From a virus, in the IMG/VR virus record IMGVR_UViG_3300034274_000018, positions 1 to 42,703 of that record: 42,703 nt of DNA; one strand, given 5' to 3'. The translations under genes were made by a program, and so were the position numbers. Shown here one piece after another: positions 7,165-27,713 of this stretch. Position 1 is the stretch's first letter, and every line of letters begins with the position of its first letter. Under the pieces are notes generated by a model, which made no database searches, was not told the DNA's origin, and was given only the letters and a program-made list of their open reading frames with translations.

Positions 7165-8397
7165 CTACGCTGTGTAGATTTTAAGCAACTTTATTAATTC
7201 ATTGTTATTTTCTCTCGTTAATTTCTTGTTCTTGTTTTTATTATATAATATCATAAAAGAACTAACTACTTTGTTAAATTTAAAAGCATCTGTATAATTA
7301 AATATTTCCGTTTTAAATTTATCAATATCAATTGTATCATTCCCATTTTCAGAAGTCCATTTATCAAATCTATTAAAGAATTTAGTTATCCCTTTTATAT
7401 TGGTGTCATTCCAACTACCGCCATCAAAATAATGTCCTATAAACATCAAGTAAAACCTCAATTCTCTCTGATTATAATTACTTGGGTTTATAACATTTCC
7501 TTTGCTTTTACTCATCTTCTCACCATTATTTAAAATCATACCTTGATGTATAACCCTTTTAAACGGCTCTTCAAAATCTATAAATCCAATATCATAAAGA
7601 AACATATTGATGAATCTTGCATAAATTAAGTGCATACAAGCATGTTCAGAACCTCCTACATACAAATCAACTTGTTTTGGTTTTATTCCTTTTACAATGC
7701 AATAAATAATATAATAGAAACTACTATCTACAAAGGTGTCCATTGTGTCATTTTCTCCATCAATAGGTATCTTACAACCCCACTTTCTTTGCCTGCTAAT
7801 ACACCAATCGTGTTGATTTTCTAACCAATTTCTCTGTGCGTTAATTGTGCTTTTTGGATAATCAATAATATCAAGGTTTTTAATCAACCTTTCTTTATAA
7901 TCGGTTATTTTAAAATACCATTGGTTTAATGTTTTTTTAGTAGGAACATTTCCACATCTATCGCAATTGTTTCCTTTAATTTGTTCACGAGCTAAAACAG
8001 TATCACAATCAATACAAAAGTCTACTTCTGCATCTTTTTTGTATGCCAATCCTTTTTCAGAAAGTTTCGCAAATAACCATTGAGAATGTTTTTGATAATC
8101 TTCATTGGAAGTAATTAACAACTCATCAAATTGAGTATTCATTTCCTTTATTTGTTCTCTGAAATTAGTAATGTTTTCATAGATTACATCTTTAGGATTT
8201 CCACCTACTTTTTTAGCATAATTTTCAGCAGGTAAGCCAAAAGAATCATACCCAAAAGGTTGAAATACAGTTTCTCCTTTATATCTTAAATAGTTACAAT
8301 AACTATCTATAATTGCATAATTATAGAAGTGCCCAATATGCAACCCGTTACCGCTTGGATAAGGAAACATAACACATATATATTTATCAAAATTCAT
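7165..8397 (-). CDS. minimal leucyl-tRNA synthetase homologue without CP1 editing domain
   Basis: 410 residues against ~800-870 for bacterial LeuRS. Visible: MFPYPSGNGLHIGH with HIGH at 20-23, FGLPAENYA (53-61), a zinc site of the LeuRS ZN-1 type (C128, C131, C145, C148), QWYFKITDY (159-167), QRNW then SRQRKWG (188-207), YVGGSEHA (256-263) and KMSKS (294-298). The ~180-residue CP1 editing domain normally between QRNW and the SRQR motif is absent; only a few residues join them. After KMSKS the helical anticodon-binding bundle begins, but the protein ends at LIKLLKIYTA, where the family continues with PFAPHI. It may charge tRNA-Leu without proofreading or activate leucine for another purpose. 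The start abuts the stop of the zinc-ribbon gene. Confidence 0.9.
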   Translation of the reverse strand: MNFDKYICVMFPYPSGNGLHIGHFYNYAIIDSYCNYLRYKGETVFQPFGYDSFGLPAENYAKKVGGNPKDVIYENITNFREQIKEMNTQFDELLITSNEDYQKHSQWLFAKLSEKGLAYKKDAEVDFCIDCDTVLAREQIKGNNCDRCGNVPTKKTLNQWYFKITDYKERLIKNLDIIDYPKSTINAQRNWLENQHDWCISRQRKWGCKIPIDGENDTMDTFVDSSFYYIIYCIVKGIKPKQVDLYVGGSEHACMHLIYARFINMFLYDIGFIDFEEPFKRVIHQGMILNNGEKMSKSKGNVINPSNYNQRELRFYLMFIGHYFDGGSWNDTNIKGITKFFNRFDKWTSENGNDTIDIDKFKTEIFNYTDAFKFNKVVSSFMILYNKNKNKKLTRENNNELIKLLKIYTA

Positions 8398-8616
8398 TTA
8401 TTTCTTCTTTAAATTCAATCTATCCTGGTAACTCAAGTATTTAAGTTTCTCGTATCGCTCTTTAAATGATTTCTGTTTTGGTGGTTCATGAGAATATACA
8501 CCGTTATCTATTTTAAATGTACACCGACATCTGAAGCATAAAACCTCTAATAGAACATCTTTGTTACTGCAGTCGGCTGCTTTCTTATTACAATGGGGGC
8601 ATCTTATCTCTATCAT
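8398..8616 (-). CDS. zinc-ribbon protein, Com-like
   Basis: 72 residues with CPHC (residues 6-9) and CFRC (28-31), giving the CxxC...CxxC zinc ribbon of small phage proteins related to Mu Com (IRCPHCNK...). The C-terminus is basic (KQKSFKERYEKLKY and LNLKKK). Com binds mom mRNA in Mu; a similar nucleic-acid-binding role is plausible but not shown. The stop (8398-8400) directly abuts the LeuRS ATG, so the two are probably translationally coupled. Confidence 0.7.
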   Translation of the reverse strand: MIEIRCPHCNKKAADCSNKDVLLEVLCFRCRCTFKIDNGVYSHEPPKQKSFKERYEKLKYLSYQDRLNLKKK

Positions 8617-25687: not shown

Positions 25688-25756
25688 GGGGCTGTCAGAT
25701 TTGAATTATTCAGGATTCCTACCTTGTGAATGAGGGTTTGATTCCCTCCAGCTCCA
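25688..25756 (+). ncRNA. tRNA/tmRNA-like RNA element
   Basis: GGGGCTG (25688-25694) pairs with CAGCTCC (25749-25755) as a 7-bp acceptor. GAGGG-TTTGATT-CCCTC (25732-25748) is a perfect T-arm with a 7-base loop directly next to it, and A756 is in the discriminator place, followed by CTTTTTT. The 37 bases between allow only a weak arm (TCAGG/CCTTG, loop ATTCCTA) and no D stem. The ends (GGGGCTG, CAGCTCCA) are those of tmRNA. No CCA and no tag ORF. It may be a tRNA-like regulator, a decayed tmRNA end used as an attachment site, or a decoy. Confidence 0.5.
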
Positions 25757-26459: not shown

Positions 26460-26765
26460 CTACAAAAGTTTTTGTAAATAGTATTTTCTACCGCTATTAT
26501 TTTGAAATTCAATTAATTGCGTTTTTTTTAATTCTCTATAGTAGTAGTCGTAATTTCTTGTATCACTTTCAAAATCATTTAGTTTTTCTACAAACGATTT
26601 TAAGTTAGTGTCAAATATTACAACCCTATTATCAGTAATAAGCGTATATAAACTTTTTAAGTCTCGTATCACTTCACAAATATAATACAAATTACAATAT
26701 AGTACGTAAATAATTGCACGAATACTTGTTATTGCAAAATAATACGTATATATTTGTATAATCAA
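26460..26765 (-). CDS. protein with unclear start, unknown function
   Basis: Open frame of 101 residues. The part from VIRDLKSLYTLITDNRVVIF (GTG near 26672) to RKYYLQKLL is protein-like: FDTNLKSFVEKLNDFESDTR then a YYYRELKKTQLIEFQNNSGR wing. It may be a small winged-helix protein. The upstream residues are Ile/Tyr-rich, overlap the transposase promoter and are probably not translated. TATATTTG lies just upstream of the GTG. Confidence 0.45.
   Translation of the reverse strand: MIIQIYTYYFAITSIRAIIYVLYCNLYYICEVIRDLKSLYTLITDNRVVIFDTNLKSFVEKLNDFESDTRNYDYYYRELKKTQLIEFQNNSGRKYYLQKLL
26726..26756 (+). promoter_or_regulatory. promoter of the transposase gene
   Basis: TTG (26726-26728), 20 bases, TATATTTG (26749-26756), 22 bases before the ATG. 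Good -7, acceptable spacing. Confidence 0.55.
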
Positions 26766-26777
26766 AAACTAGAAACC

Positions 26778-27713
26778 ATGAATTTTAAATCACTCCCACA
26801 GCTTTTAGACTACTTCAAAGAAGAAAGCACTTGCAAAGACTACTACCAACAGATACGTTGGAACGGTGACATAGCTTGTCCTCATTGTGCTAGTTTAAAG
26901 GTTTATACAACTAAAAGAGGGTTTAGATGTGGAGAGAAAGAGTGTAGAAAGGATTTTAGCATAACAACTGGCACTATTTTTCATAATTCTAAAATTTCAT
27001 TAAGAATATGGTTTGCAGCGATTTATTTAGCCACTACTCATAAAAAGGGTATTTCTTCGGTTCAGCTAGGTTTAGACTTAGGCATTCCCCAAAAGACAGC
27101 TTGGTTTGTTTTACATCGTATTCGCGAAATGCTAAGAGAGAAGTCTCCGCAAATGTTAGGAGAAAGTAAAATGGTAGAAATTGATGCCACTTATATTGGT
27201 GGAAAGGAACGCAATAAGCATTTAAACAAACGACGTTCTCAAAATGATAAGAACTTAACTAATGAGGGTGAATCATATAAGCCTAAAAAAACAGTTGTAG
27301 GAATCATTGAGCGTAACGGTAAAGTAGCTTTAAGATATGTAAGCGGAGAGACTACTAAGAATATGGAAGATTTTGTGACGACACACGTTCCACAAGATTC
27401 GACTATCTATTCTGATGAAGCTCCTGCGTATAATCAATTAAAAAGATACTATACACATGACAACGTTAAGCACGCTCTTAATATATATGTTGAGGGTAAT
27501 GTGCATACGAACACCATAGAGAACTTTTGGAGTGTATTAAAAAGAGGTTTGTATGGTGTTTACCATCAAGTAAGTGATAAGCATTTAGAACGTTACTTGG
27601 ATGAATTTGCAGCACGTTTTAATACTCGTGATTTGACAAGTCAAGAAAGGTTTGAAAAGTTTTTGGTGGATAGTGAGAGTGTTTTGAGCTATAAGGAGTT
27701 GACTTTAAACTAA
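26778..27713 (+). CDS. IS1595-family (ISXO2-like) transposase
   Basis: 311 residues from ATG 26778. N-terminal zinc ribbon CPHC...CGEKECRKDFS (about residues 34-62), helix-turn-helix GISSVQLGLDLGIPQKTAWF, catalytic EIDATYIGG (D near 137), YSDEAPAY (second D) and HTNTIENFWSVLKRGLYG with the C-terminal acidic position. Full length for the family. The stop overlaps the stop of the convergent HEPN-like gene by 4 bases, leaving no room for a normal right inverted repeat, so the element may be trapped or immobile. Confidence 0.88.
   Translation: MNFKSLPQLLDYFKEESTCKDYYQQIRWNGDIACPHCASLKVYTTKRGFRCGEKECRKDFSITTGTIFHNSKISLRIWFAAIYLATTHKKGISSVQLGLDLGIPQKTAWFVLHRIREMLREKSPQMLGESKMVEIDATYIGGKERNKHLNKRRSQNDKNLTNEGESYKPKKTVVGIIERNGKVALRYVSGETTKNMEDFVTTHVPQDSTIYSDEAPAYNQLKRYYTHDNVKHALNIYVEGNVHTNTIENFWSVLKRGLYGVYHQVSDKHLERYLDEFAARFNTRDLTSQERFEKFLVDSESVLSYKELTLN

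Follow-up and report, generated by a model that had tools for sequence, protein, structure and literature searches.

Leucyl-tRNA synthetases (LeuRS) without the CP1 editing domain are already known, as are synthetases encoded by phages. The LeuRS of Mycoplasma mobile (PDB 3ziu) is a natural enzyme that lacks CP1; it is cellular, is the organism's own LeuRS and is 637 residues long. AgnB2 (PDB 5ah5), which makes the producer of agrocin 84 immune to its own product, is an accessory LeuRS of 822 residues carried on a mobile element. GluQ-RS, a truncated GluRS paralogue that has no anticodon-binding domain and acts in queuosine modification, is a further example of a shortened synthetase encoded outside the normal set. 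For huge phages, Al-Shayeb et al. (PMC7162821) report as many as 15 synthetases, with which these phages may charge tRNAs of their own; we found neither a leucyl-tRNA synthetase nor the loss of an editing domain mentioned in its main text. In the open-access literature we found neither a description of a phage LeuRS without an editing domain, which is weak evidence of absence, nor biochemistry for any member of the family described here.

The window, by which we mean the whole analysed stretch of 42,703 nucleotides, is a record classified as a linear viral contig. It contains a leuS gene of reduced size (mini leuS) at positions 7165-8397, coordinates that the earlier note had given correctly while leaving out the strand, which is minus. 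The frame starts with ATG and encodes 410 residues. By every sequence test this product is a bacterial-type LeuRS catalytic core. It matched the Pfam class I synthetase domains, and the NCBIfam profile leuS_bact (E=1.4e-97, 327.8 bits) ranked well ahead of metG (6e-39), ileS (4e-36) and TIGR00422 valS (3e-34). The score lies under the whole-protein cut-off of 548.4 bits because about half of the profile describes domains that are absent here. The first 17 distinct PDB sequences that it matched were all LeuRS, with 3ziu at the top.

The HIGH, KMSKS, zinc and leucine-pocket motifs were all intact. HIGH (residues 20-23, 8329-8340, minus strand) had H20, G22 and H23 invariant among 19 aligned members; all four cysteines of the zinc-knuckle region ZN1 (C128/C131/C145/C148; 7954-8016, minus) were likewise invariant, as were K294, M295 and K297 of KMSKS (residues 294-298, 7504-7518, minus). 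These motifs, together with SRQRKWG (201-207) and YVGGSEHA (246-253), lie at the residues that had been assigned to them from the sequence, and the other landmarks listed at that time were invariant or nearly so across the same alignment.

The reduction in size results from several separate losses. At the bacterial site of the editing domain QRNWLEN is followed directly by QHDWCISRQ, so that only a few linking residues (WLENxHDW; junction WLENQHD, residues 191-197, 7807-7827, minus) stand in place of CP1, and the LeuRS editing domain PF13603 was found nowhere in the window. The view that CP1 is cleanly absent was thus borne out. A short linker in place of CP1 beside an intact core is the arrangement of the M. 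mobile enzyme. Alignment with full-length bacterial LeuRS further placed the loss of about 35 residues at the N-terminus, of the leucine-specific insert (roughly 50 residues after SRQRxWGxxIPI; junction at residues 211-217, 7747-7767, minus) and of a 4-residue piece after KMSKSKGNVINP. The anticodon-binding helical bundle is shortened (residues 331-410, 7168-7407, minus) and ends at the position of E. coli LeuRS residue 766, beyond which everything is gone, including the last bundle helices and the C-terminal tRNA-binding domain. The earlier statement that the C-terminal half is missing therefore holds for the C-terminal domain, the last helices and the leucine-specific insert, but most of the anticodon bundle is kept.

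Structure prediction, a check proposed in the earlier note, returned a coherent fold for the 410-residue protein (AlphaFold2 with the family alignment; mean pLDDT 84, pTM 0.82). The best Foldseek match was again the CP1-less M. mobile LeuRS 3ziu (TM-score by query length 0.86), followed by AgnB2. VIA-align gave Z values of about 31 over 373-408 residues against the T. thermophilus and E. coli LeuRS, and the structural alignments reached residue 784 or 766, respectively, with a span of 28-766 on the E. coli enzyme. In the model, the mini-LeuRS is a catalytic core that retains most of the anticodon bundle. It differs from the M. mobile enzyme in being viral, in its 410 residues and in the additional absence of the leucine-specific insert and the C-terminal domain; it is also shorter than AgnB2, whose role is self-immunity to agrocin 84, and it keeps most of the anticodon-binding region that GluQ-RS lacks.

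A search of phage databases for CP1-less LeuRS, likewise suggested beforehand, gave, over two scans of IMG/VR, about 40 records, some of them near-duplicates, whose contigs measure 13 kb to 608 kb and whose LeuRS is 52-90% identical to the mini-LeuRS. They have its architecture, with a linker of the WLENxHDW type at the CP1 site. The relatives share the short form (about 410-430 residues) and are not full length, which upholds the proposal of a phage LeuRS without an editing domain. INPHARED added a copy of 71% identity in the huge phage LR745206 (634,780 bp), and the huge-phage records LR756501/LR756503 (735,411-bp record) hold a more distant LeuRS (33%, 508 residues); here, by contrast, mini leuS occurs in a much smaller phage record (42.7 kb) that shows no clear tRNAs. 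Among 37 members of the phage clade, 9-14 residues separate the start of QxxW from DWC at the bacterial CP1 site. Mini leuS is under strong purifying selection, with dN/dS values of 0.074, 0.056 and 0.101 in comparison with L003, L004 and L024. Among the best 80 cellular homologues, nearly all of the complete frames were 794-1003 residues long, and the short ones were mostly cut by contig ends. Two short closed cellular frames of 446 and 544 residues (L054 and L079, from KSB1 and Peregrinibacteria MAGs) are probably interrupted frames.

In a tree of core columns, unrooted, with long branches and with M. mobile left out, 37 CP1-less enzymes and one further viral enzyme, L127, formed a single phage clade (SH-aLRT 100). 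L127 (5307-6917 of a 148.7-kb viral contig) has a compact CP1 of 119 residues with the editing-site-like motifs TTKPET and GTGYVMGVPNDDKRD, carries the mini-type deletions other than that of CP1, and groups with L120-L122. When 27 records were scanned for PF13603, the match was clear in L127 only and the remaining weak matches were IleRS. A tree that forced the CP1-less enzymes together without L127 was rejected (AU p=0.0003). The nesting of L127 among CP1-less enzymes implies, as far as these sequences go, that CP1 was either lost several times within the phage clade or regained by L127. A second group without CP1 comprises L128-L130 and the 735-kb phage (508-541 residues), and L126 likewise shows no CP1. 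Other synthetases of large phages gave a mixed picture. ValRS of 442-509 residues lacked CP1 and were of two types, one with PRK05729 as best match (P0002/L140, 9902-11428) and one with PRK13208 (L160, 239-1564; L161, 2082-3410; L162, 115-1500), whereas IleRS of 735-742 residues (L165, L168 and L169) retained CP1; editing loss among large-phage synthetases is therefore not uniform. In the six regions checked, none of these ValRS or IleRS genes was seen next to cognate tRNAs.

We then considered the tRNA genes around leuS. ARAGORN detected 255 tRNAs in 26 of 50 loci. Within 2.5 kb of leuS, 57 of 119 tRNAs were tRNA-Leu, compared with 12 of 116 at greater distance (one duplicate left out); the corresponding Fisher p=1e-10 is optimistic, as related phages were counted as independent and same-type tRNAs cluster anyway. 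Seven consecutive tRNA-Leu genes precede leuS in L016, a single one lies 11-40 bases from it in L022, L025, L128 and L129, and homologues at about 60-70% identity to the mini-LeuRS sit beside tRNA-Leu genes. The bacterial leucine discriminator base, A73, was present in 65 of 69 tRNA-Leu. The placement of tRNA-Leu beside leuS in large-phage relatives supports ordinary tRNA charging by this LeuRS family.

A short variable region occurred in 26 of 69 tRNA-Leu and in none of 15 tRNA-Ser of the phage set. Co-adaptation of this arm to the lost C-terminal domain of LeuRS was rejected, since the short form also occurs where the phage has no LeuRS homologue (KVP40, 3 of 3; LR756504, 2 of 4; 5 of 15 overall; Fisher p=1). 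These class I-like tRNA-Leu of 73-78 nt were seen in KVP40 (L185), LR756504 (L191-L194), L016, L022, L113, L128 and L129. Separately, L149, L150 and L151, from the records of L007, L009 and L021, contain arrays of tRNA-Glu-like genes. Several of these have an extra perfect D-loop hairpin or an enlarged anticodon arm, many score poorly in tRNA scans and some stand behind TAnnTTTG-type promoters; they are possibly decoys.

Near leuS in the window and its closest relatives there was no ARAGORN or above-threshold tRNA, and these phages have no convincing tRNA-Leu. The window does contain a weak tRNA-like element at 25688-25756 (plus strand; RF00005, 25.1 bits, under the gathering score) with pairing acceptor stem and T-arm, which may represent the remains of a tRNA or a portion of an attachment site. 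A tRNA-like partner RNA was considered and dropped: the 65-69-nt RF00005 matches, which comprise the window element and others that follow leuS in six near-identical phages, all fell below the gathering score. The five that were folded gave no better structures than shuffled sequences did (z 0.1 to -1.3).

The genes beside leuS offered no alternative partner. A 72-residue zinc-ribbon frame (8398-8616, minus) abuts the start of leuS through a TAA-ATG junction, as the earlier note had observed in describing a Com-like gene coupled to leuS, and it weakly matches a PHROG Com-type family (E=0.007). It is not conserved beside leuS in relatives: each of the distinct small-phage relatives inspected has other genes upstream. 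In the window, a gene for a DNA methyltransferase is located 2 kb upstream of leuS. A conserved tie of leuS to either gene was ruled out, as the neighbours differ between distinct small phages, and clustering of neighbouring genes yielded, apart from general groups such as a GluRS-like gene, no protein partner whose conservation extended past near-identical phages. That several distinct small phages share leuS without common neighbours suggests that the gene works alone. An IS1595/ISXO2-like transposase with a zinc ribbon is encoded at 26754-27713 (plus) in a stretch of opposite gene direction.

The host is probably a member of the Bacteroidota, because Shine-Dalgarno-like motifs are few (upstream of 1 of 41 window genes) and TTG..TAnnTTTG promoters occur in relatives (L007-L019). 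In the window itself the Bacteroidota promoter motif TAnnTTTG was not enriched (54 observed, 71 expected).

Taken together, these results make it likely that the gene encodes a phage-specific, minimal, editing-free LeuRS that charges tRNA-Leu, phage-encoded where such genes are present and host-encoded in the source phage. The enzyme would convert leucine to Leu-AMP and transfer it to tRNA-Leu. Since LeuRS does not need the anticodon, recognition could proceed mainly through the acceptor end and the core of the tRNA. In phages with their own tRNA-Leu, the adjacent set is the likely substrate. With no clear tRNA-Leu in the window and no other neighbour shared by the small phages, the enzyme here would need host tRNA-Leu; in such tRNA-poor phages it would charge the host molecules and make the supply of Leu-tRNA independent of the host LeuRS during infection. 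Errors with norvaline and isoleucine may be tolerated over one short infection cycle, and editing-deficient Mycoplasma tolerate mischarging of this kind. The sequence, predicted fold, conservation and neighbourhood are direct results; from these we infer that the enzyme activates leucine, charges tRNA and benefits the phage, and the tie to tRNA-Leu is drawn for the source phage by analogy with its larger relatives. One feature counts against tRNA charging: the mini-LeuRS has lost the C-terminal domain, with which LeuRS touches tRNA in complexes of known structure. The suggestions made at the outset, namely escape from inhibitors, escape from tRNA-Leu cleavage or activation of leucine for another acceptor, found nothing in their support, and the clustering of tRNA-Leu in large-phage relatives points to charging.

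Why the gene is carried is a related question. It may serve counter-defence or self-sufficiency, restoring Leu-tRNA when a defence system or antimicrobials block the host LeuRS, or helping after cleavage of tRNA-Leu. We regard this as a tentative explanation of lower probability, and it is compatible with tRNA charging. A stand-alone gene common to otherwise unrelated small phages would fit it, as would the presence of AgnB2 among the structural matches. On the other hand, no linked counter-defence gene was identified, and a synthetase alone cannot restore cleaved tRNA.

For the small tRNA-less phages, a combined reading holds that the mini-LeuRS serves non-tRNA leucylation or a programme of norvaline/isoleucine mistranslation, and that CP1 was lost and then regained in the clade (L127); this we consider improbable. 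Use of activated leucine for a non-tRNA acceptor (a protein, DNA base, modified nucleoside or small molecule), in the manner of truncated synthetase paralogues such as GluQ-RS, appears about equally doubtful, if not slightly more so. The loss of the C-terminal tRNA-binding domain, the lack of a detectable tRNA-Leu in the source phage and its nearest relatives, and the methyltransferase gene upstream would be in keeping with such a role. However, GluQ-RS does not keep an anticodon bundle as this enzyme largely does, the homologues of about 60-70% identity adjoin tRNA-Leu genes, and leuS has no conserved neighbour that encodes a protein partner. Deliberate incorporation of norvaline or isoleucine into host or phage proteins, to the benefit of the phage, is very unlikely: all clade members but one lack CP1 and some of the same large phages have a CP1-less ValRS, but L127 has CP1, the IleRS of these phages retain it, so that editing loss is no general programme, and an overall reduction in size that also removed the leucine-specific insert and the C-terminus is the simpler account. 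Finally, a truncated remnant, pseudogene or misassembly of a full-length leuS, to which 410 residues against about 810 in most cellular homologues might point, can be dismissed given the same architecture in about 40 viral records, dN/dS of 0.06-0.10 and the coherent predicted fold; its conservation in the same compact form marks the mini-LeuRS as a genuine viral enzyme under selection, not a gene copy that has decayed.

At 410 residues the mini-LeuRS is about half the size of a typical cellular LeuRS and far below the 637 residues of the only CP1-less LeuRS structure found, and its conservation extends over a broad range of phages. L127, which bears CP1 amid CP1-less enzymes, provides a natural experiment on how an editing domain is lost or regained. 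For genetic code work in the laboratory, compact phage LeuRS and the accompanying tRNA-Leu genes are candidate orthogonal synthetase/tRNA pairs. What minimum of LeuRS suffices to charge tRNA-Leu, and whether a virus can do without proofreading, have now become directly testable.
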